In this document: piece by piece, positions 6,448 through 26,965 of the stretch
Numbering within the stretch: the stretch's first letter is position 1
How the letters are laid out: each line of letters opens with the position of its first letter
DNA from: a virus
Reading direction: 5' to 3' (one strand)
Length of the DNA: 35,982 nt
IMG/VR virus record: IMGVR_UViG_3300036834_000060
Location: 1-35,982 of that record
Translations under genes and position numbers: made by a program
Notes under the pieces: generated by a model
What the model saw: only the letters and a program-made list of their open reading frames with translations
Database searches by the model: none
What the model was told of the DNA's origin: nothing

Positions 6448-7962
6448 ATGGCAGTCCAAACCCAATTTAGCACGGATCCTAATGCGATTGTCACGGTTCA
6501 TGTGTCAATCGTTGAAGCTCCAACTCCGATCAATTATCAGCGTTGTGGTGCATTCGTATCATTTGGCGCAACCCAATTGAAGCCAAATGATTCTACACTT
6601 CTAACACAACTAGCAGATCTTACTCCTCCTCCAACAGTGACTCAAGTATTGCAACCTCCTATGGCAATACAAACTACGACTTGGGCCGCAGGAACTGTGA
6701 CTTGCGTTCTAGTAAATCCAATTCCTGGACCTCCAGTTGTAGGTGATACATTCACACTTGTTCTTAGCGGGTTCACTCCTGCGGCATATAATGGCAGATT
6801 CCTAGTAACAGTCACAGCTGCGAATACATTCACATATCCATTAACAACCGGTCCCGGTGCTGTAACTGTCGAAGGTATCGCAACTTTTGGCACAGTCATT
6901 GAACTTCAGCAGATGGCGAATACCTATTTCGCACAGGGTAATGAAGTTGCTGTCTGGGTCCTTGAACTAGGATACCAAACCACTTTCGCTAATAGAGTGG
7001 CGGCATTCGATACGTGGTTGACGAATAATCCGTTGACTATCTATGGATTCTTAATGCCACGTGAATTTGGGGAAGACCCAAATATTCCCGATTGGCCGGG
7101 GTTCCCAACTCCGGTTCCCGGACCAACGACATGGATAGATCTTTTGAAGCGGTTCCAAAACCCAGAAGCAATGGAATATTTCTGGATTACGGTAACACCG
7201 GAGAATATGAACACATTGGGAGCGACATTCAAGGACGTGTTCCAATTGGTTGAGGCTCCTGTATTGACTGACCCAACAGTAGCAAATCTCAACGATCCTT
7301 ATGGGGAATTTACTCTGGCGGCAGTATTCTATAACGCTATCGTGTATCGTCCATCGAACACAAATCGGATCTCACCTATGGCATTCAAATATGTCTATGG
7401 TGTGACAGAATATCCACAAAGAGGCAATGGGCCGTTATTGACCTCCTTCAAGACCGCAAATACGAATTATATTTCAACTGGTGCGGAGGGTGGCATTTCA
7501 TTCACCATGGTTTATGAAGGTGTGACCCTTGATGGCCATGACTATTTCAACTGGTGGTATACGATTGATTGGGTCCAGATCGAAATAAACTTGAACCTGA
7601 GCAATGCAATTATCAATGGGTCAAATAACCCGTTGGCACCACTCTACTACAACCAAGATGGTATCAACTATCTTGAAGTGGTTCTGTATGGCACAATGCA
7701 GAGTGCTCAGACCTTCGGTATGGTTTTAGGTAAGATCGAAATGACCCAATTAGATGGTCCAGATCTCACCGCAGCAATCTACGGAGGTAGCTTCGCCGCT
7801 AAGTGCGATGTGAATGCAGTGCCATTCCTCAATTACACCTTGGCAAATCCAGGTGACTACAAGATTGGGGAGTATGATGGACTTTCGACCTTGTTCATCC
7901 CGGCTCGCGGCTTTATTCACATCCTTGTGAATGTGGTTGCATCTGACCTAATCTCAATCTAA
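6448..7962 (+). CDS. Contractile tail sheath protein (DUF3383-like)
   Basis: 504 residues. The sheath surrounds the tube and contracts to drive it into the host. The sequence resembles the DUF3383 phage sheath family: an N-terminal strand DPNAIVTVHVSIVEAPTPI, FYNAIVYRPSNTNRISPMAF in the middle and a beta-rich C-terminal domain ending with FIHILVNVVA. Residues about 65-150 look like an inserted beta-sandwich (GFTPAAYNGRFLVTVTAANT, then FTYPL), a feature I have seen in this family. The next gene, a tail-tube candidate, follows after 11 bases, the usual sheath-tube order. Start ATG 6448 has AAGGG upstream. Confidence 0.8.
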   Translation: MAVQTQFSTDPNAIVTVHVSIVEAPTPINYQRCGAFVSFGATQLKPNDSTLLTQLADLTPPPTVTQVLQPPMAIQTTTWAAGTVTCVLVNPIPGPPVVGDTFTLVLSGFTPAAYNGRFLVTVTAANTFTYPLTTGPGAVTVEGIATFGTVIELQQMANTYFAQGNEVAVWVLELGYQTTFANRVAAFDTWLTNNPLTIYGFLMPREFGEDPNIPDWPGFPTPVPGPTTWIDLLKRFQNPEAMEYFWITVTPENMNTLGATFKDVFQLVEAPVLTDPTVANLNDPYGEFTLAAVFYNAIVYRPSNTNRISPMAFKYVYGVTEYPQRGNGPLLTSFKTANTNYISTGAEGGISFTMVYEGVTLDGHDYFNWWYTIDWVQIEINLNLSNAIINGSNNPLAPLYYNQDGINYLEVVLYGTMQSAQTFGMVLGKIEMTQLDGPDLTAAIYGGSFAAKCDVNAVPFLNYTLANPGDYKIGEYDGLSTLFIPARGFIHILVNVVASDLISI

Positions 7963-9724: not shown

Positions 9725-9855
9725 TCCAGTCATGTTTTTCATGGCTGATGGATGAAGGGTTCAAAAACTTCTTCGATCAATTTGAAATGAGTTGGCCACA
9801 CGGCTCTCGGTTAGAGTGGCAACAGCGATATATGATCGCTTTGTGGAAGGCTTGA
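9511..9855 (+). CDS. Tail assembly chaperone -1 frame extension
   Basis: The -1 frame relative to the chaperone is open from 9511 to TGA 9853-9855. Its stop shares a base with the tape-measure ATG (TGATG), which argues that it is translated. Downstream of the chaperone stop it encodes a Trp/Phe-rich, acidic segment (SWLMDEGFKNFFDQFEMSWP, then RLEWQQRYMIALWKA). No start codon with a ribosome site was found, so a programmed -1 frameshift like that of lambda G/GT is likely. No classic heptamer was found; the nearest is GGAAAAC at 9526-9532, with an imperfect P-site match. The exact junction is unknown. Confidence 0.55.
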   Translation, partial: CSSRSGKLHRIFYLCLVNSPEGGVGGGYGRLEHSLERANYLIKCYGVYSFFADIDAGRDYWRESENGSESIVQSCFSWLMDEGFKNFFDQFEMSWPHGSRLEWQQRYMIALWKA

Positions 9856-12800
9856 TGGCAACTGTTCAAGTAACTATACCTCCAAGTTTTATAAGCTCTA
9901 TGCAGCAACTGATGCAGACAATGCAGCAGATGCAGAAGATTACGACACAATTTACTCAGTCTGCACAACAAATGCATATTCCTACTCAACAGGCTCATGC
10001 AGCACAGACTCAAGTAATGAGTCGGATGAATAAACTGCTTCAACTTTTTCGAAAGATTGAGGCAGTATTTGTGAAAGCCATTGACTCTATTATAAACGCA
10101 ATGGGGAGTATCGCTCAAACATTTCTAAGAGGGTTGGCTTTATCTGCTGAAATATTAAGCCCGATTGTTATGGCGGTCGGAGCAACTCTTTCTATTGCTC
10201 AATATACTTCTAGGTTTGCACGATGGATTTGGAATAAGATGGTCGATCTTGGTGACTCTATGCTACAAGATTGGCTTTTATCATCAGGCATGATGGCTAC
10301 TGTAGGTGGACTACGTTCATATCGAACTGCGTTCGGTATGCTACCAGACCAGCAGATTATAGCCCAAATGCCCAAGGCTCGTGGATATGCGGCATCACAA
10401 CAAGCTATCGCCTTAGGACTATTGGGAGTTAAGAATTTTAGAAATAGTGCGGATATGATGGTTCAGGCAACTTTGGCCGCAGCTAAATTTATGAAGAAAC
10501 AGCAGAAAGGTCAAGAACTAAAGATGGCTGAAGCTTCGGCTCTGACCTCACTTTTCAGCCCAAGAGATCTGCTTGCGCTTCGTGAAATAGATGAAAAAGA
10601 ATTAGAGGAGAGAGCCAAGTTATATGAAGCAAATAAAGCAAAACTAGAGATTTCTGAAGAGGCACGTCACGGATGGACGGACTTTTCTATTCAAACCAAA
10701 GTAATGTGGGCTAGGATTCAAACTGCTATTGCAGAAGGAATGGCTGATCCTCGTTCAAATTTCATGCAAGCGTTTGATCAGTTAAGTAAGAGTATGGTAA
10801 AATTCATAAAGGTTTTTATGGATACTCCAATTGTAGAAAAGATCTTTAATTGGTTGGCAAAACAGATCGATGCGTTTGCTAATAAATTGAGTGACGATGA
10901 AACTATTAATGAGTTTAAAAAAATTGTGAATACAATAGGTGAGATTATTAAGTTAATCTACCAAGCAACTACTATCCTCCTTGGATTTGGTGCTTCATTA
11001 AGAATGCGAGAAGGAAAACCTACTCTTCTCAGTCAAAGATATCCCGGTAGAGCACGGTTTATGGAGCATATAGGGATGCGAGGAGAGCCTCGTGGTCCAT
11101 TTGGAGTTATTCCAGGAGCTAAGTATGAAAGACCAGCCCATGCTCCAGCAGAAGTAATGCCCGCTCCCATTACTCGATATCCCGGCAGAGCAAGATTTGC
11201 TGAAAAGATTGGAGCACCTAAACCTTCTGCTGGAGTCATTCCAAGTGCTGCACCTTCAAAAGAACAGCATTATACTGGAGGAAATACTTCAGTTGCTATG
11301 GCGGCTATGGAAGATCAATTGCGTAAGGAAGGTGTACCAGAGGCAAATGTAAGATCAGCCGCTGCTTTGCTAGTTGGTCAGGCGCAGGCAGAAAGTAATC
11401 TTAATCCGAATTTATCGCATGATCAAGGCACCGGCTATGGAATCTATGGTGCGCGCCTTGGTCGTCGGACAGCGATGTTGAACTGGTTAAAAGAAAATAA
11501 GTATGAACCTAATAGTCTTGAAGGTCAGTCTAGATATATGGCGCATGAAGCGATGACTGGAAAAGGCTATGGCGCAACACGTGAAACATTAAGAAAAGCA
11601 ACACCAGAATCAATAGATAAAGACTCAGACGTGATAACTCGGAATTTTGAAAGTCCTGCTGTTAATAATTCACGATATCGAGCAGGTAGAGCCCGTGACG
11701 CATATCATGCTCCCGCTCCCGCTGCTAGTCGGCCATCTGGTGCAACAACACCATCTCCCGCTCCTACTACTAAAGGTGACTACATCAAACCTAGCGCTGA
11801 TGTAGCTAGGCGTCCTCTTGGACCTGGAGCTGATAGTTCTTCTCTAGCTGAACAGAGAAAGCGTATTGGTGAAGAATTAAAAGATCCTGAAACTAGACGA
11901 CTTTTAGCAGCATCTACAAATGCAGAGGTTGGTGGACAAGGATCGGAAGCAGAACATAGTTATATTGAGTCCGTAACTAATAGAGCTCTTTCTAGAAATA
12001 AGTCATTAAAAGAAACACTTCGTGATCCACATTACTACCCGGAAACAACAAAAAATAAATTGGATAATCGAGTCAGTGCATCAGACCAAGCACGCATTGA
12101 CGAACATACCGCTAAAGTCTTAGCTGGATCAAATGTTACGAACTATGGGACTGGCAACGAAAGCGGAAATGTTCGTTCTGGTGGTGCTCAGATAACAAGG
12201 GATTTTGGTCCTCGTCGGGAACGATTTATCCGTGAAAATGCTGATCTAAAGTGGGTCAATAAGCAACTTGCTAGAGATGGGAACCAACCTCTTCCAAAGG
12301 AGGCAGTAAAAGATCCTAACTCTGGTCAGATTTCAGTTCCGCAGAAAGAATCAGTTGTGCCGGGGGAAGAACGATTATCTACCGTTGGTAATTATCGACT
12401 TGCTGGTGACCAACGTCGTGCCGATCTTATAAAAGCTGGAGCAGCCGCATCTAAAAACCTTCCTCCCGGTTGGAAAGTTGAAGCCTATTCAGGTCAACGT
12501 GATGGTCCAAATGATGGTCCTCACAAACATTCCGGTGCAATCGATTTCCGTCTTATTCCTCCCGGTAAAACCTTTGAACAGATGAAAGGTGCTGACTATC
12601 AGTCTCCAGAAAATTTTGCGGTTTATGAAAAGTTTGCACAAGATACACATCTTTCCTTGCAGAAGATAAATCCAGAATTGGCACAGCAGCATCGATGGGG
12701 AGGTTATTTTTCTGGTCCAATTGGTGCCGGTGGAAAATATGGTGCGATGGACTTAATGCATCAGGATTTTGCCGGTGGTGATGCTCGTATGGCGGCTGGA

Positions 12801-13214
12801 CAATGGAAAACCGGATTACATCCAGCATGGCAGAGAGCATGGGGTGTTGGTGAACACAGTTCAGGTATTGCTGAAAGAGCTAAGAATGATGCTGAAAACG
12901 CTTCTCGTGTTAGTCCTTCTGTAGATAAATCCTCGGCTTGGCCGGAGCAAGGAACCAAACCTGTAGATTATGCTTCAAATGATAACCATCCTATTAATAA
13001 CATAAAGATTGATAATCGTTCTGATATGGATATTCATCAAGCTAAGACTCATTCAGATAATGATTCTGGTCAATCAGAAACTGCAGATCAATTGACTCCA
13101 CCTGATCATGCTGGTCATCACGATCCGAAAGGTACTGAAAGCACGCTACCACCCGTGACCGTTGAACCAGATGAAGGTTCAGGGACATCGCATAGTTCAG
13201 AAGAATCAGAATAA
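9855..13214 (+). CDS. Tape measure protein with three cell-wall hydrolase-like domains
   Basis: 1119 residues from ATG 9855 (an in-frame start at 9792 would overlap the chaperone extension). The N-terminus is Gln/Met-rich and helical (MQQLMQTMQQMQKI), followed by a hydrophobic stretch near residues 90-130 and long helices to ~370. Then come: a phage tail lysozyme-like domain, about 480-615, with likely catalytic Glu513 in AQAESNLNPN; a SleB-like hydrolase domain, about 670-780, with Glu691 in NAEVGGQGSEA and NRALSRN; and an M15 peptidase-like domain, about 855-975, with candidate zinc ligands His892 and Asp897 (KHSGAIDF) and His969 (MDLMHQDF). Two YPGRARF repeats separate helices from enzymes. 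The tail end is hydrophilic. It probably sets tail length and opens the cell wall during DNA entry. Confidence 0.75.
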   Translation: MATVQVTIPPSFISSMQQLMQTMQQMQKITTQFTQSAQQMHIPTQQAHAAQTQVMSRMNKLLQLFRKIEAVFVKAIDSIINAMGSIAQTFLRGLALSAEILSPIVMAVGATLSIAQYTSRFARWIWNKMVDLGDSMLQDWLLSSGMMATVGGLRSYRTAFGMLPDQQIIAQMPKARGYAASQQAIALGLLGVKNFRNSADMMVQATLAAAKFMKKQQKGQELKMAEASALTSLFSPRDLLALREIDEKELEERAKLYEANKAKLEISEEARHGWTDFSIQTKVMWARIQTAIAEGMADPRSNFMQAFDQLSKSMVKFIKVFMDTPIVEKIFNWLAKQIDAFANKLSDDETINEFKKIVNTIGEIIKLIYQATTILLGFGASLRMREGKPTLLSQRYPGRARFMEHIGMRGEPRGPFGVIPGAKYERPAHAPAEVMPAPITRYPGRARFAEKIGAPKPSAGVIPSAAPSKEQHYTGGNTSVAMAAMEDQLRKEGVPEANVRSAAALLVGQAQAESNLNPNLSHDQGTGYGIYGARLGRRTAMLNWLKENKYEPNSLEGQSRYMAHEAMTGKGYGATRETLRKATPESIDKDSDVITRNFESPAVNNSRYRAGRARDAYHAPAPAASRPSGATTPSPAPTTKGDYIKPSADVARRPLGPGADSSSLAEQRKRIGEELKDPETRRLLAASTNAEVGGQGSEAEHSYIESVTNRALSRNKSLKETLRDPHYYPETTKNKLDNRVSASDQARIDEHTAKVLAGSNVTNYGTGNESGNVRSGGAQITRDFGPRRERFIRENADLKWVNKQLARDGNQPLPKEAVKDPNSGQISVPQKESVVPGEERLSTVGNYRLAGDQRRADLIKAGAAASKNLPPGWKVEAYSGQRDGPNDGPHKHSGAIDFRLIPPGKTFEQMKGADYQSPENFAVYEKFAQDTHLSLQKINPELAQQHRWGGYFSGPIGAGGKYGAMDLMHQDFAGGDARMAAGQWKTGLHPAWQRAWGVGEHSSGIAERAKNDAENASRVSPSVDKSSAWPEQGTKPVDYASNDNHPINNIKIDNRSDMDIHQAKTHSDNDSGQSETADQLTPPDHAGHHDPKGTESTLPPVTVEPDEGSGTSHSSEESE

Positions 13215-14572
13215 TGAGATATTATAATATCAATGTAGCTGGAGCTCCATCAGATGTTTTCCCACCAAGATATGATGGAGGAGCACAGTGGGGAACGATA
13301 TTGAATGGGCAACATGATCCTAATGCACAACAAATAGAATTTCAAATTCAGGAATGGAATTCAACTACTCCTACTGAAAATAGTGTGCTGACAATTCATG
13401 GTGTGACTTGGGATCAAATCAAGGCTAGTAATTCTCTTGTCGGCAAAGTGATAACTGTATATGGAGGTATGTCACCCGGTCTGCCACTCGCTACATTTCA
13501 GTCACAACGTGATAAATTACTTCTGCAAGGAGTTATTCTTAAATGTTGGGGAAATTGGATTGGCACAGAAATGTCGATCGGTATGGCCTTCTTGCCAGCA
13601 GGTGCTCTTCAGGCTAGTTCCACTGGTACTTCTTCTCCAACTGCTGTTGGTGCTCCTTCTCCTGATGTTCCATCTATTGCTCAATATGATCGTACTGGCC
13701 CACGTTCGATAGATAGAAGATTTCGTAACCGGATGCAAGGAATACCGGGTCTGCCAACAACAAATGCGATAACAGATCTTAGTGGTAATATCATAAAGCT
13801 TGTTTCTAATTTTGATATTGGTCCTGCAACTTCTGTCGTTGGAGGTATGACAACATCATTCTTTGGTGGTGGTAATATTTCACCATTATCAGCACCAATA
13901 AACTTAATTCATAATATGATGCCGGGTACGGATTTGTCTGGTGCAATTCAAGATACACTATCAAAAGCTTTTCCTCAAGCTAACATCAATGTTCTTATCT
14001 CTCAAGGAATTAAGATGGGGTACCAAGATGCAGGCATGTATCAGTCTGTAGAACAATATGCTGATTATATTCAAAAACTTAGCCAATCTGCATTAGGATC
14101 TAAAGACTATCAGGGTGTTCAGTTAACTTCGTATAATAACACATTGACTGCTCTTGATTTTACCCAACCTGTTTCAAATGGTGAAATCAATTATTTAGAT
14201 CTAATAGGACAACCTACATGGCTGGATATTCAAACGATCAGTGTAAAAGTTGTTCTTAGAGGTGGATTGCATGTCGGAAGTTATGTGACATTACCACAGA
14301 CACTTGTTAATTTCGCCGGAGCGGACGCAATGCTTCCCGGTAATGCTCCAGATCAAAGAACTCATATTTCATTGCCTGGAGCTTATAAGGTGTATAAGAT
14401 TCTACATATAGGGGATTTTAGGAATCCTGATGGTGCAAGTTGGAGCACGAATTATGAATTATTAACGGGTGGCGCAACATCGTATGTGTCTCCACTTGAG
14501 GTTCCACAAGATCCTCTTCAAGGTCTGACACCACTGCAACAACAGTCAGTTAGAGGTGTGACTACTCCATAA
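13214..14572 (+). CDS. Putative baseplate hub / tail protein
   Basis: 452 residues, coupled by one-base overlaps to both flanking genes. The N-terminal ~135 residues form a beta-rich unit (QIEFQIQEWNSTTPTENSVL, then LVGKVITVYGGM and LQGVILKCWGNWIGTEMSIG). A Ser/Thr/Ala linker (about 137-155) follows. The middle is helical with Gly/Ile-rich patches, and the last ~120 residues are again beta-rich (TISVKVVLRGGLHVGSYVTL). The design of a short N-terminal beta domain and a C-terminal beta domain suits a hub or initiator protein at the tube tip. No named family recognised. Confidence 0.45.
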   Translation: MRYYNINVAGAPSDVFPPRYDGGAQWGTILNGQHDPNAQQIEFQIQEWNSTTPTENSVLTIHGVTWDQIKASNSLVGKVITVYGGMSPGLPLATFQSQRDKLLLQGVILKCWGNWIGTEMSIGMAFLPAGALQASSTGTSSPTAVGAPSPDVPSIAQYDRTGPRSIDRRFRNRMQGIPGLPTTNAITDLSGNIIKLVSNFDIGPATSVVGGMTTSFFGGGNISPLSAPINLIHNMMPGTDLSGAIQDTLSKAFPQANINVLISQGIKMGYQDAGMYQSVEQYADYIQKLSQSALGSKDYQGVQLTSYNNTLTALDFTQPVSNGEINYLDLIGQPTWLDIQTISVKVVLRGGLHVGSYVTLPQTLVNFAGADAMLPGNAPDQRTHISLPGAYKVYKILHIGDFRNPDGASWSTNYELLTGGATSYVSPLEVPQDPLQGLTPLQQQSVRGVTTP

Positions 14573-16401
14573 TGGCAAGAGCTCCTCAACTCACCGTTAA
14601 CGTCAATTCGCAACAATTCCAACAGTTTGCGAAGCAATTTGCTGCGTTTTCTGGGCAAATGAAACAATTAAACCAGCAATTTTCTCAGATTAATGCTACT
14701 CTTCAAAAGACTGCTTTGACTACTCGTGTAATAAATGCTACGTTACAAGGAACTATGAATATTGTTAAAGGAGTTGGTTCTGCTATTGGTAAGATTACAG
14801 GTCATTTTCTAAAATGGTCTGTCATTATCGGCGGAGTCACAACACTATTAGGAATGGGAGGTGGCCTATTTGGCATCGATAGATTAGCACAGTCGATCTT
14901 AACTAAACGAAGACAGGTGCTTGGTTTAGGTGGGAGCGCGAATTACGGACGGGTTCAGGCCAGTACCATCTATAATCAATCTTATCTTGATAACCCGATG
15001 GGCAGTCTACAGGCTGTTCAAAGAGGATTAGGAGGAAGTTCAGATGAGCTAAGAGGTCTTGCAGCAGCGGGTATCCCATTTGGGACCAAGATGTCTTCTG
15101 CTGAGGTCCTGGATAAAATCATTGATAAGACTATGGAGGTTGTGAAACGGGCAGCTCCAGGTACTGAATTAATGGTGACGAAAGCGTATGGTCTAGATAA
15201 GTTTCTTTCAGAATCTGATATAATGAGAATGGTGACCGAAGAAGGTCGCAAGGAAATTTTGGAAAAGCGTGAACTAATTAAAGCTCATGAAAAAGAACTT
15301 CAATTAAGCCCCAAGGCACAAAAAGGATGGGCAGATCTAGAACTGCAATTTCAAATTGCTAAAGCTTCTATGCAGACTATTTTTGGCGAAAAACTTCGTG
15401 ATCTTGCCAAGCCTTTAGGTAAGCTAAGCGAGGGATTTGCACATCTAATCAAGGTTTTAATGGATTCTCCTGCTGTTCAGAAAGTTATGAAAAGATTAGC
15501 TGATGGAATTGATTGGTTGTCAGATAAGTTAAAAGAGCTAACAGATGATGATATAGATAAATTTATTAAGAAGATACAGGAATGGTTGCCTACACTAGAA
15601 GAGTTTAAAAGTGCTTTGAAAGGTTTTATTGATGCTTTGACGACTGTTGTGTCTGTAATGAACACTTTATTCCCACAGAAAAATCCTTTAGCGAGTGCTA
15701 CTCAAGCTACAGGAGCCGGGGCAGTACATGATTGGTTGGGGACACATCTTACTCCTGCTGGGAAAAAACTACTTGGTTTTGATTCTGGCTTATCACAGAC
15801 TCAAGCTCCTACAACTCAACCTTCTACAACTCAAGCTCCTGAGGCTCCTCAAGCTCCTCAAGCTCCTACAACTCAACCTTCTGCAACTCCAGCTCCTCAA
15901 GCTCCTATAACCCAACCTTCTGCAACCCCACCTCCTCAAGCTCCAGCTACAGCGGCTTCACAGGTATCAGGTGGAGGGTTTGGTGCGGGTGCAACTCCAT
16001 TTCAAAGCTTTAGTGGATACCCCGGCAGATTTGGCGGTGGATACGTCAATTCAGGATATGGTGGCACTAATCTTGGAGGTGGGTTTGTCGGTGGTCCACA
16101 AGCACCATCAGCAACTCCTCCTCCCGGTGGAGGTAGTTTTATGAATATGATTGGTGGTCCACAAGCACCATCAGCAACTCCTCCTCCTCCTTCTGGCACT
16201 GCTAAAGGATTTATTCCTCCGGCACAGGGGGGAGGAGGTGGACTATCTGGCAGACTCCCAAGCGTTATGGGTTCGGATCCAGGTTTGAAACCTGGACCAC
16301 TATCTATGAATAATTGGCAAATGAATAGAACTGCAAGCCTCGTTGTTCGAAATGTACCCGGCTCTAATATCTTTATGAGTGCACAAGGAATGACAGGCTA
16401 A
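14572..16401 (+). CDS. Second tape-measure-like protein (paralogue)
   Basis: 609 residues. The N-terminus is Gln/Phe-rich (QQFQQFAKQFAAFSGQMKQL), followed by a hydrophobic segment about 80-105 (WSVIIGGVTTLLGMGGGLFG). Residues about 225-360 match the tape measure at 9855: both have a helix with E-L/K pairs ending S-x-x-A-x-x-GW-x-D, then MDSPAVQKVMKRLADGIDWL here versus MDTPIVEKIFNWLAKQIDAF there, then a D-D/E-x-I-x-x-F-x-K-K/I helix. It lacks hydrolase domains. The C-terminal third is a low-complexity linker of TQAP/PQAP units and Gly-rich stretches with a 35-bp exact repeat. It may act as a second ruler or tail-lumen protein. Confidence 0.6.
   Translation: MARAPQLTVNVNSQQFQQFAKQFAAFSGQMKQLNQQFSQINATLQKTALTTRVINATLQGTMNIVKGVGSAIGKITGHFLKWSVIIGGVTTLLGMGGGLFGIDRLAQSILTKRRQVLGLGGSANYGRVQASTIYNQSYLDNPMGSLQAVQRGLGGSSDELRGLAAAGIPFGTKMSSAEVLDKIIDKTMEVVKRAAPGTELMVTKAYGLDKFLSESDIMRMVTEEGRKEILEKRELIKAHEKELQLSPKAQKGWADLELQFQIAKASMQTIFGEKLRDLAKPLGKLSEGFAHLIKVLMDSPAVQKVMKRLADGIDWLSDKLKELTDDDIDKFIKKIQEWLPTLEEFKSALKGFIDALTTVVSVMNTLFPQKNPLASATQATGAGAVHDWLGTHLTPAGKKLLGFDSGLSQTQAPTTQPSTTQAPEAPQAPQAPTTQPSATPAPQAPITQPSATPPPQAPATAASQVSGGGFGAGATPFQSFSGYPGRFGGGYVNSGYGGTNLGGGFVGGPQAPSATPPPGGGSFMNMIGGPQAPSATPPPPSGTAKGFIPPAQGGGGGLSGRLPSVMGSDPGLKPGPLSMNNWQMNRTASLVVRNVPGSNIFMSAQGMTG
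16090..16187 (+). repeat. 35-bp exact direct repeat in a low-complexity linker
   Basis: Identical 35-base copies at 16090-16124 and 16153-16187, each encoding GGPQAPSATPP. The linker upstream (about 15800-15950) also repeats CAAGCTCCT-type units encoding QAP. Such repeats can expand or contract by slippage. Confidence 0.85.
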
Positions 16402-18999: not shown

Positions 19000-20427
19000 A
19001 TGGCTATTCTTCCCCTTGTAATGACTCCTCAGGGCCTGCAACCAGCCTCTCCGGCTGATCTGCGTAATAGACTAATTACACTTGTCGCCGGATCTAATCC
19101 TGATTATACCGCCAACCTTCCAGGTTCATTGATTGAAGATGTCTCAAGCACAGACACCTATGCTCTTGTTGAAAGTGATAGTTTCTTAGTTGATCTAGTG
19201 AACTCTGTTACTCCATTTGCAGCTAATCCATATCTACTAAACCAACTCGGTATTCTTTATGGTGTAGATAAACAACCAATCACTAATACGTCTGTCTTTG
19301 TGGTTTTCACGGGCACCCCCGGTTATATCATTCCTCAAGGATTTGTTGTTTCTGATGGTACGTATCAATATGTGGCACAGACAGGATCAATCGTAGGATT
19401 AAATGGAAATACCCTCCCAGTTTACTGTCTAGCAGCTCAAGCAGGAGCTTGGCCGGTAGCTTTGAATACTGTCGTCGAAATGGCTACTTCCGTCCCGGCT
19501 AATGTTTCATTGACAGTTACAAATCCTGTCTCAGGTATTCCATCACAATCTGGTGAACCAATCAGTGTTTACCGGGAGCGTGTCTTTACGGCTGGTCTTG
19601 CTGCTTCTACAGGTATGTCTCGATATTTAAAGACACTTCTTTCAAATGTACCTGGAGTACAAAATCGTCTTGTTTCTGTGCAGGAGCAAGAAGATCTTTC
19701 AGCGTTTACCGTTATTGTAGGTGGTGGTGATCCATATCAAGTTGCGTATGCGATTTGGTCTGCGGACTTTTATACTCCAGGTCTAACCGGGGGTATTATT
19801 CGTGTTGCAGGTATTTCAAATACAAATCCTGTTGTAGTCACAACTGTAGATAATCATAATCTAGCTACGGGAGATATTGAAGTGGTTTCTGATAATATTG
19901 GTGTTTCACATATTAATGATAATGCATATTCAATTACTGTGACTAGTTTGAAAACATTTACAATTCCAGTAGATGGAACACCATATGGAACGTATCAGTC
20001 TGGAGGTATTGTAACACCGAATCCGATCAATGAACTTGTTACTGTCTCTGATTATCCTGATAGTTTTTCAATTCCGTTTGTTATTCCTCCACAAGAACTT
20101 GTGAATATTACTGTGACTTGGAGGACAGATTCTCCAAATTATGTTTCTTCTGCTGCTGTTGCTCAATATGCGACTCCTGCAATTATAGATTATATCAATA
20201 GCTTGCCAGCAGGCACGACTCCTATTAACTTGAATGTGTTAAATGAGGTATTTATAGATTCTCTGGTATCAATTATTTCTGGAGAATTAATTATCAGTAT
20301 CGATTGGACTATCTCTGTTAGTGGTGTAGGTGTCAATCCATCACCGGGAACGCAGGTTATTTTTGGTGATAGATACAGTTACTTTTATACGGATACTTCA
20401 CAAGTATCTGTGGTTCAGGGTGCCTGA
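19000..20427 (+). CDS. Baseplate J-like protein
   Basis: 475 residues, a wedge component of contractile-tail baseplates. Landmarks of the family are present: an N-terminal SPADLRNRLITLVAGSNPDY helix, VESDSFLVDLVNSVTPFAA, the LNQLGILYGVDKQP motif, then V-F-T-G-T-P-G-Y-I-I-P-Q-G and the core G-E-P-I-S-V-Y-R-E-R around residue 190. Residues about 265-345 look like an inserted beta domain (VVVTTVDNHNLATGDIEVVS) of the kind found in phage sheath and fibre proteins. Stop overlaps the next start. Confidence 0.78.
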   Translation: MAILPLVMTPQGLQPASPADLRNRLITLVAGSNPDYTANLPGSLIEDVSSTDTYALVESDSFLVDLVNSVTPFAANPYLLNQLGILYGVDKQPITNTSVFVVFTGTPGYIIPQGFVVSDGTYQYVAQTGSIVGLNGNTLPVYCLAAQAGAWPVALNTVVEMATSVPANVSLTVTNPVSGIPSQSGEPISVYRERVFTAGLAASTGMSRYLKTLLSNVPGVQNRLVSVQEQEDLSAFTVIVGGGDPYQVAYAIWSADFYTPGLTGGIIRVAGISNTNPVVVTTVDNHNLATGDIEVVSDNIGVSHINDNAYSITVTSLKTFTIPVDGTPYGTYQSGGIVTPNPINELVTVSDYPDSFSIPFVIPPQELVNITVTWRTDSPNYVSSAAVAQYATPAIIDYINSLPAGTTPINLNVLNEVFIDSLVSIISGELIISIDWTISVSGVGVNPSPGTQVIFGDRYSYFYTDTSQVSVVQGA

Positions 20428-23441: not shown

Positions 23442-24187
23442 GTGATATATTACAGCCAGCCCCTGTAGAAACTATTCTGGGCTCTGGTGCGGGTGGGCCA
23501 CTCACGGCTCCTGGACCATGGATTCAATATACCGGATATCTACAATATGCTGGAGGAGTCGTAGTTGGTAGTCCTACAGGAGGGAATCAAGGTGCTGGAA
23601 CGATAAATGCTCCAGCGGTCTATGCCAATGGGTCCCAGATAATTCCTGCCAATTATGTCAATCTATCTGGCGGGACAATGACCGGTCCATTGATTTTGTC
23701 AGGCGACCCAACCAATCCGCTCGGTTCTACGACAAAACAATACTCAGATACAAAGGTTCCACTGGCAGGTGGAACAATGACTGGTCCGCTAATTCAAGCA
23801 GCAGACCCTGTGAATAATCTTGGCACTGCAACGAAACAGTATGTCGATAATAAGGCGGCTCTTTATCTTCCACTTATCGGTGGGACACTGACAGGATTTC
23901 TTACTTTATCAGCAGATCCGACTAATCTACTTCATTCGGCAACAAAGCAATATGTCGATAATCATATCAGTGGAGCAGTTGCGAATTATTTGCCTCTTGC
24001 CGGTGGAACGTTGACCGGTGCATTGACGTTAGCTGCTGATCCTACAACGGCTCTTGGAGCCGCAACGAAAGAATATGTGGATGGTCGTACAACAGGATTT
24101 ACCATACCAGATGCACCTTCTGATGGATCTACGTATGGTCGGAATAATGCTGCATGGACCAATGTCATTGATGCGGGGACTTACTGA
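23438..24187 (+). CDS. Repeat-containing tail fibre protein
   Basis: 249 residues from ATG 23438, which overlaps the previous stop; a GTG two codons earlier is also possible. Four repeats of about 36 residues make up the centre: LAGGTMTGPL, A-D-P-T-x-x-L-G and ATKQYVDN. This is the common phage fibre repeat that forms a trimeric shaft. The C-terminus TNVIDAGTY matches the end of the collagen-like fibre at 3879-4805. The stop shares a base with the next fibre gene. Confidence 0.75.
   Translation: MSDILQPAPVETILGSGAGGPLTAPGPWIQYTGYLQYAGGVVVGSPTGGNQGAGTINAPAVYANGSQIIPANYVNLSGGTMTGPLILSGDPTNPLGSTTKQYSDTKVPLAGGTMTGPLIQAADPVNNLGTATKQYVDNKAALYLPLIGGTLTGFLTLSADPTNLLHSATKQYVDNHISGAVANYLPLAGGTLTGALTLAADPTTALGAATKEYVDGRTTGFTIPDAPSDGSTYGRNNAAWTNVIDAGTY
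23654..24102 (+). repeat. Four fibre-shaft repeats
   Basis: Four imperfect units of roughly 105-120 bases, each encoding GGTMTGPL or GGTLTGxL, then ADPxxxLG and TKQY. Limits are approximate and were read from the protein sequence. Confidence 0.75.
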
Positions 24188-25554
24188 TGGCCAACGTCAT
24201 TAAATTACTACGCTCAATCACAGCCGGTAGTCGCCCATCAGGTAAGACATATGGTGAACCATATGTCAATATATCGGATGGCCAATTAGGGGTCTTTGAT
24301 TCTAGTAACGCAGCTCGTGATTTGATTGGTGTTCCATTCTTTTCTGCGAATGCGAATTACAATGCTGGCCGACCAGTCAATTATCAAGGCCAAGAATATG
24401 TGGCATTGGTAAATGTGGCAGCGGGTGCTTGGAATCCAGCACAATGGACTCTGGTGGCAACTCAAAACTATATTGCCAGTCATACGAATTGGGATGCATT
24501 GGCTTATATGAACATGGCCATCAATCCTAGGATGGATATAAGTCAAGAACGTGGGAATTATAATGATACTGGCGGTATTCTATCAATGACGAGCGGCACA
24601 CAGAGATATGTTCTTGATGGATACCAAGCTTATTTTAAGAATGCCTCGGCAACAGTGAGTGTGGCTCAAATGTCATTAGTTACGTTTGGAGTACCTTATC
24701 AGAATTTTTCAAATTCTCTGTATTTGTATACGGGAAATGGGTTTACGACACTGGCGAATGGTGATTGTAGCTCAGTTTTTGTTATGGTCGAAGGTTATCG
24801 GATGGCTCGGTTAAATTGGGGAACAGTCGCCGCTCAACCATTGACTTATGCCTTTGCGCTGTATGCTGGTGGTGCTGGAACCTTTTTTATTCGATTCATG
24901 AACGCTACTACAAATCGTACCTATTATCAAGAACTGGTGTCTCCCGGTCTAGGCTGGCATTTCTATACCGGTACAATTCCTGGTGATACAGCAGGCACAT
25001 GGAACAGAGACACTGGTGTCGGTTTGTATTTTCAGATCTTTTTCTGTGGAAAAGATGCAACAGCCGCAGTCCTAAACACTTGGGGAACAGTGACACCGAT
25101 ACAGACACCAAATAATGGAAATCTATTGGCTGCGGCTGCAACGAATATTTGTCTCACTGGAATCTATCTTGGTGCCGGAACTTTGACAATACCTGAGGCT
25201 GCCTTACCCAATCTGATGCGTCCAAGTGGTGATGAACTACCAATCTGTCAACGCTATAGTGAAAGTGGAGGAGGACCAGTGAACCTTATTTCTGGTCTTA
25301 GTAATCTTCACATTGTTCAATCAATCTACTATGTTCCATATACCGTTACCAAGCGAATAAATCCCCCTAGTATCGCATATAGAGGACAATGGCTATATTA
25401 TTCTGCTGGAAACCCCACGCTATTTACTCCATTGAATGCGAGTGGTTCTATCAATGGTATGAGTTTTTATCGATCAGACTTTACAGACTGGGAAGGATGG
25501 TGCCCTCATACGGGAACTCCTCCCGGAACTTGGTTCGCAGATTCGAGGCTATGA
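24187..25554 (+). CDS. Distal tail fibre / receptor-binding protein
   Basis: 455 residues, one-base overlap with the preceding fibre. The N-terminal VIKLLRSITAGSRPSGKTYG, then EPYVNISDGQLGVFD, is a common fibre attachment motif. Residues 50-90 read like a small carbohydrate-binding domain (YNAGRPVNYQGQEYVALVNV). The remaining ~350 residues are beta-rich and unlike fibre shafts, with aromatic-rich strands (LGWHFYTGTIPGDTAGTWNR), consistent with a receptor-binding head. The exact receptor cannot be told from sequence. Confidence 0.6.
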   Translation: MANVIKLLRSITAGSRPSGKTYGEPYVNISDGQLGVFDSSNAARDLIGVPFFSANANYNAGRPVNYQGQEYVALVNVAAGAWNPAQWTLVATQNYIASHTNWDALAYMNMAINPRMDISQERGNYNDTGGILSMTSGTQRYVLDGYQAYFKNASATVSVAQMSLVTFGVPYQNFSNSLYLYTGNGFTTLANGDCSSVFVMVEGYRMARLNWGTVAAQPLTYAFALYAGGAGTFFIRFMNATTNRTYYQELVSPGLGWHFYTGTIPGDTAGTWNRDTGVGLYFQIFFCGKDATAAVLNTWGTVTPIQTPNNGNLLAAAATNICLTGIYLGAGTLTIPEAALPNLMRPSGDELPICQRYSESGGGPVNLISGLSNLHIVQSIYYVPYTVTKRINPPSIAYRGQWLYYSAGNPTLFTPLNASGSINGMSFYRSDFTDWEGWCPHTGTPPGTWFADSRL

Positions 25555-26041: not shown

Positions 26042-26965
26042 ATGAAGATAGTCATATCATCCGGTCATGGTCTTCATATTCGCGGTGCCAGTGGCTATCT
26101 TGATGAGGTGGATGAAGCTAGAAAGGTTGTAGAAAAACTTGCTGAAAACTTACGTAGCATCAATGTAGATGTCACAACATTTCATGACGATACGTCGACT
26201 ACGCAGGATAAGAACCTAAAAACAATTGTAGATTTTCATAATTCACAAACACGTGACCTAGACGTATCAGTGCATTTCAACGCTTATAAGACCACGAGTA
26301 ATCCAATGGGGACGGAGGTTCTATATGTCACACAAGGGGACCTCGCGTCGGAAATTGCGCAAGCGATCTCGAAAGCGGGAGGGTTGCTTAACCGGGGTCC
26401 TAAGAAGCGCTCTGATCTTTATTTTCTCAATAATACCAATGAACCAGCCATCCTAATTGAAGTCTGCTTTGTTGATAGTTCTGCTGATGCAAATTTGTAT
26501 CGAGCGCATTTTCGAGCAATTTGTGCATCCATCGCAAATGTGGCTAGACCTACTGACCCAAATATCCAGGTCGATAATCCGGCACCTATACCGGGGAATC
26601 AGAAAGATATCACGGCGTCTGTATTTGGTGGTAAAGACGATTATAATACTTCTGCTTATGATCCTAACAAAGTTCTTAATGATACAGATCTGTATGTTGC
26701 GTTGCCAGATAAGTTTACTGAGGAGAGGCCTCAGGTCAAAGTATATAACCGGGAGACGGTAGCTTCGGCAGTAGCAGAGATCTTGGACGTAGGGCCGTGG
26801 AATACGGATGATCCATATTGGAGTAAAGGAACACGGCCACAGGCAGAATCCGGAACTGATATGTCAGGCCGCACAACGAATAACGCCGGGATAGATTTAT
26901 CCCCGGCACTCGCCAAGAAGCTTGGCATTGATGGAATGGGTACAGTGGACTGGGAATTCGTATGA
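26042..26965 (+). CDS. Endolysin: N-acetylmuramoyl-L-alanine amidase with C-terminal RlpA-like region
   Basis: 307 residues. Residues 1-170 match the Amidase_3 family, a zinc enzyme cutting the glycan-peptide link in peptidoglycan. Candidate zinc and catalytic residues are His9 (SSGHG), Glu22 or Glu25 (GYLDEVDEAR), His78 (VSVHFNAY) and Glu140 (ILIEVCFVD). A linker near 180 leads to a second domain, about 193-307, with ASVFGGKDDYNTSAYDP, LPDKFTEERPQVKVYN, VGPWNTDDPYW and AGIDLSPALAKKLGID, a pattern of double-psi beta-barrel (RlpA-like) proteins. No signal peptide is seen, so release would need a holin. The short gene after it may be coupled (ATGA). Confidence 0.8.
   Translation: MKIVISSGHGLHIRGASGYLDEVDEARKVVEKLAENLRSINVDVTTFHDDTSTTQDKNLKTIVDFHNSQTRDLDVSVHFNAYKTTSNPMGTEVLYVTQGDLASEIAQAISKAGGLLNRGPKKRSDLYFLNNTNEPAILIEVCFVDSSADANLYRAHFRAICASIANVARPTDPNIQVDNPAPIPGNQKDITASVFGGKDDYNTSAYDPNKVLNDTDLYVALPDKFTEERPQVKVYNRETVASAVAEILDVGPWNTDDPYWSKGTRPQAESGTDMSGRTTNNAGIDLSPALAKKLGIDGMGTVDWEFV

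Follow-up and report, generated by a model that had tools for sequence, protein, structure and literature searches.

A tape-measure-like phage protein with lysozyme, SleB-like and M15-like domains in a single chain

Motif 3 of the mycobacteriophage TM4 tape measure is a peptidoglycan hydrolase which aids the infection of stationary cells; TM4 has one hydrolase motif, while Barnyard has two motifs (PMC1796659). The tape measure of the staphylococcal siphovirus phage SA2 carries an SLT and an M23 domain (PMC6787349). The protein described here is comparable to both. Like the TM4 protein, it has a (predicted) hydrolase inside a protein of the tape measure kind, although the TM4 motif is of another family. 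Like the SA2 protein, it unites predicted cutters of glycan and of peptide in a single chain, but SA2 is a Gram-positive siphovirus and its tape measure has two such domains of other families (SLT, M23). A lysozyme of the same fold is found in another tail protein, the tail-tip morphogenesis protein gp13 of phi29 (3csq), which differs in having two domains and no ruler part. gp13 also carries an M23-type peptidase.

By gene position, the closest described counterparts are the tape measures of Klebsiella phage vB_Kpn_Chronis (MN013086 gp14) and Pantoea phage PdC23 (NC_071008 gp15), which occupy the same place in a related contractile-tail cluster. These proteins are 655 and 546 aa long and have at most one recognised hydrolase domain, the Chronis one being a C-terminal Pfam SLT transglycosylase domain (E=1.8e-17). 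Each of the two phages has one tape measure gene, whereas the window (the whole stretch of DNA analysed here, a virus record of 35,982 bases that is a single metagenomic contig) has two paralogs around a hub gene. The relevant features are as follows.

6448..7962, + strand, tail sheath (phrog_205, E=3e-17; 36% identity to Klebsiella phage Chronis over 97%)
9855..13214, + strand, tape-measure-like protein of 1119 aa, its C-terminal part carrying three hydrolase-like domains (single open frame; homology and synteny with tape measures)
9855..11054, + strand, its ruler region at the N-terminus, residues 1-400, hydrophobic around residues 80-120 (41-43% identity to contigs L003 and L210; homologous to the PdC23 tape measure)
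11268..11714, + strand, its tail-lysozyme domain, residues 472-620, Glu513 codon 11391-11393 (Pfam PF18013, gp13 profile match, fold)
11844..12254, + strand, its SleB-like domain, residues 664-800, Glu691 codon 11925-11927, Asn709-Arg710 (fold match to 4fet, Glu691 invariance, profile-profile comparison)
12366..12884, + strand, its M15-like zinc peptidase domain (predicted), residues 838-1010, His890 12522-12524, Asp897 12543-12545, Asp966 12750-12752, His969 12759-12761 (ligands, weak Pfam, VanX, fold)
13214..14572, + strand, homolog of baseplate hub proteins, flanked by the two tape-measure-like genes (phrog_196 baseplate hub, E=1e-16; PdC23 gp18 and Chronis gp17 are homologs)
14572..16401, + strand, second tape-measure-like paralog of 609 aa, no hydrolase found (homology to the first; Chronis tape measure, E=2e-12; L003 and L210 have the same gene order)
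19000..20427, + strand, baseplate J-like protein (PF04865 above cut-off)

The sheath shares about 36% identity with those of Klebsiella and Yersinia myoviruses. The window also encodes a capsid protein, a tube protein, a family A DNA polymerase and an Amidase_3 protein. The presence of capsid, sheath, tube, hub and baseplate J genes identifies the virus as a contractile-tailed phage. The Amidase_3 protein is encoded by a separate gene (26042-26965, E=8.7e-26) and is a candidate endolysin, in which case the phage would carry a fourth type of wall-cutting enzyme. The protein encoded at 24187-25554, near the tail fibre genes, has a possible carbohydrate-binding module (CBM_5_12, score below cut-off).

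The reading frame of the three-domain protein is unbroken from the ATG at 9855 to the stop codon at 13214, and GGAAGG lies immediately 5' of the ATG. Residues 239-323 gave a match to HsdM_N that stays under the cut-off of that family (E=0.00025) and was rejected as a chance match of helical sequence. The linker preceding the lysozyme domain (residues 394-450, about 11034-11204) contains two copies of a short motif, RYPGRARFxExIG; one clear copy of a motif of this type is present in L210 (RYPGRQRFHEKIG).

The lysozyme is the most readily recognised of the three domains. Residues 501-618 match Phage_lysozyme2 (PF18013) with E=2.9e-14 and 53.9 bits, above the curated cut-off of 28.2. A profile built from 27 lysozyme relatives matches phi29 gp13, a protein of solved structure, with E=3e-5 and places Glu513, invariant in all 27 sequences, on Glu45, the catalytic residue of gp13. 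The predicted fold matches the gp13 structure 3csq with Z 14.7 over 140 residues (rmsd 2.7). Residues 472-620 are thus classified, from sequence and modelled fold, as a tail lysozyme of the phi29 gp13 type. An earlier note on this DNA had proposed a tail lysozyme-like domain here, with the putative catalytic Glu513 correctly placed.

The SleB-like domain has escaped Pfam. None of its 15 relatives matches Hydrolase_2/SleB (PF07486) at E<=1 and the window domain has no match at E<=10, so sequence libraries alone would reject a SleB identity. A UPF0154 match in the same Pfam search was discarded as a chance match of helical sequence. The domain profile gave only chance matches against PDB sequences, and tblastn of the domain against phage records gave nothing above chance. 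The structural comparison points the other way. The domain folded alone (a moderate model, pLDDT 69, pTM 0.71) clearly matches only the SleB catalytic domains of Bacillus, with Z 10.1 and 9.8, the next unrelated entry having Z 2.1. In a 541-residue model of all three domains, which is confident in this region, the match to 4fet_A reaches Z 12.1 (rmsd 2.6 over 115 residues, 10% identity). Foldseek returned weak E-values (0.3 to 1) with probabilities of 0.91-1.0. Glu691, Asn709 and Arg710 are invariant in 15 out of 15 sequences, down to 26% identity. A profile-profile comparison with Hydrolase_2 proteins gathered by their motif gave a weak match (P=0.003, score 24.2, the controls, whether shuffled, reversed or from other domains, scoring 8.3-15.4), and its alignment sets Glu691 on the Glu of the SleB motif AEARGE and Asn709-Arg710 on the NR motif. 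The domain therefore shares with SleB of Bacillus anthracis and B. cereus (4fet, 4f55) the predicted fold, the putative catalytic Glu and the NR motif that follows it, but differs in its setting (a phage tail rather than a spore), in its 10% identity and in the lack of a Pfam match. Judging by model and alignment, residues 664-800 very likely fold like a distant SleB, with the putative catalytic position conserved; the SleB assignment made from the letters alone, including the choice of Glu691, stood on fold and Glu position while failing in Pfam.

Pfam M15 models do not match the window's third domain either, although Peptidase_M15_4 gives a weak match in 12 of 24 relatives (best E=0.0045). 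The zinc-ligand pattern of M15 enzymes is present: H-x6-D followed by a further His, with an acidic residue three positions before the last His. His890, Asp897, Asp966 and His969, which make up this pattern, are invariant in the 24 relatives, down to 23% identity. The M15-like profile aligns with VanX at SSHSRGSAIDL. In the three-domain model this domain bears a modest, tentative fold resemblance to LysECD7 (8q2g), an endolysin of the M15 class, with Z 6.4 over 108 residues and rmsd 3.9; LysECD7 is a free lysin, whereas the window domain is a module of a predicted tail protein. Residues 838-1010 are accordingly described as M15-like, a predicted zinc peptidase. With the full ligand set, weak Pfam matches in half of the relatives and a moderate fold match, the proposed M15 identity is upheld. 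Two of the residues originally named, Asp897 and His969, were right, while His892 proved unconserved, His890 being the residue at the HxxxxxxD spacing, and Asp966 of the D-x-x-H element had been missed.

All three domain assignments in one chain have thus survived, the lysozyme by Pfam and fold, the SleB-like domain by fold and the position of its Glu, and the M15-like domain by its ligands. A failure of two or more regions, which the earlier note had set as grounds for giving up its reading, did not occur. It could be argued that no more than one or two of the domains work as enzymes and that the others, the SleB-like one above all, are peptidoglycan-binding or structural modules which have kept the fold. 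The divergence of the SleB-like family beyond Pfam recognition and its low identity to SleB are in line with this. However, modules that only bind would be expected to lose their catalytic residues, and the invariance of Glu513, Glu691 and all four M15 positions, as placed by the alignments, speaks against it; we regard a binding-only role as unlikely.

The three domains also occur apart. Among the viral-contig relatives, the lysozyme, the M15-like and the SleB-like domain are each found alone, as well as in the following combinations.

L055, L075: lysozyme and M15
L018, L021: M15, lysozyme and a peptidoglycan-binding domain
L003, L044, L210: SleB-like and M15
L039, L046: SleB-like and Pfam M15_4
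L041:2985-6356: SleB-like, then CHAP, in one tape-measure-sized protein
L005:3540-6044: SleB-like, M15 and M23 (M23 E=3.6e-12) in a tail-region protein without a recognised ruler part

Lysozyme, SleB-like and M15-like domains together were found only in the window among these relatives, part of which were run through Pfam, so that further third domains may have escaped notice. A P0001 peptide-pattern search found no relatives in bacterial genomes. Since the trio is known from a single metagenomic contig, with no other contig found to carry all three domains, the join might be an assembly chimera or a dead-end recombinant. We consider this highly improbable, as the frame is unbroken, the joints are Pro/Ala-rich linkers, no domain has an outlying GC3 and the SleB-like and M15-like pair recurs with the same neighbours in L003 and L210.

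L003 and L210, the two closest relatives, have the ruler, SleB-like and M15-like parts and the same downstream genes, and they lack the lysozyme. In the window, the lysozyme sits in a Pro/Ala-rich linker that joins the ruler to the SleB-like domain and both ends of which align with the L003 and L210 proteins. Related lysozyme domains from other sources, set in tail proteins that are otherwise different, mostly share 45 to 60% identity with it. As the closest relatives are without it, the lysozyme seems to have been added as a further module in the window lineage, which is the simplest reading of these three sequences; it is possible that it was instead lost in the L003 and L210 lineages. GC3 is low across the whole reading frame (0.17 to 0.34), the lysozyme part being no exception, so the putative gain need not be recent.

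The earlier note had called this protein the tape measure. Homology and gene order support the tape-measure kinship, but the protein is not the only candidate. The paralog at 14572-16401, which has a Pro/Gly/Thr-rich linker, shares 28% identity with residues 197-378 of the three-domain protein (E=5e-20). It lies one gene downstream, with the hub homolog in between, and the same holds for L003 and L210. The homologous central region links the PdC23 tape measure to the three-domain protein and the Chronis tape measure to the paralog. The presence of the paralog therefore makes the identity of the length-setting protein uncertain. The 609-aa protein might be the true ruler, and the three-domain protein a lysin, either injected or placed at the tail tip, that arose when a tape measure was duplicated. 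By eye, the C-terminal end of the paralog (RNVPGSNIFMSAQGMTG) looks like those of the tape measures of Chronis and PdC23 (NNTGGNAVVTSAQLGAR), the paralog adjoins the same downstream genes as they do, and the hub homolog separates the two genes. On the other hand, residues 217-375 of the three-domain protein are homologous to the PdC23 protein that is annotated as tail length tape measure (E=6e-13), its N-terminus of about 400 residues is ruler-like, and its gene follows the tube gene and the chaperone-like phrog_11810 gene, syntenic with the single Chronis tape measure. We hold the injected-lysin alternative to be a serious one, slightly less probable than not.

Overall, we interpret the 9855-13214 product as an internal tail protein of the tape measure kind whose three C-terminal wall-degrading modules would be delivered on infection and open the murein locally. 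We put the probability of this reading at roughly 0.8, on the basis of the sequence, the domains, the predicted folds, the conserved catalytic residues and the domain shuffling. The contracting tail would carry the protein through the outer envelope of a presumably Gram-negative host, so that the C-terminal enzymes reach the periplasm together with the tube. There the lysozyme and its SleB-like neighbour would act on the glycan strands, the M15-like domain would break a peptide bond within the stem peptide, and the resulting local hole in the murein would let the tube and the DNA pass. Phage lysozymes and SleB-type transglycosylases attack the same glycan bond by different chemistry, while M15 enzymes cut peptide bonds. 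The lysozyme and the SleB-like domain thus probably cut the same bond, and of the idea that three classes of enzyme attack both glycan and peptide what remains is three enzyme families acting on two classes of bond. Two predicted glycan cutters and one predicted peptide cutter would together loosen both strands and cross-links locally.

Going further, and quite tentatively, we speculate that in this phage group the tape measure has split into two paralogs sharing one tail. The 14572-16401 protein would rule length and the 9855-13214 protein would be delivered as a chain of enzymes, gathering modules that cut the wall, in this case a lysozyme, a lytic transglycosylase and an M15 peptidase acting together at one hole. 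We find this rather doubtful as a whole.

The analysis confirmed the three-domain tape-measure-like protein as real, a rare and richly armed version of a known arrangement. Three tail hydrolases had been thought unusual, which is true insofar as this trio was met only in the window among the relatives compared; tape measures with two hydrolases are already published. No paper on tape measures with three hydrolase domains was found in the openly accessible part of the literature. Several phage tail proteins contain the remote SleB-like family, which Pfam-based scans would miss. Whether a phage gets through the wall depends on its tail hydrolases, and published examples normally have one such domain or a pair. 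Together with relatives that have two of the same domains, the three-domain chain offers a natural series in which to study why several lysins are stacked in one phage protein.
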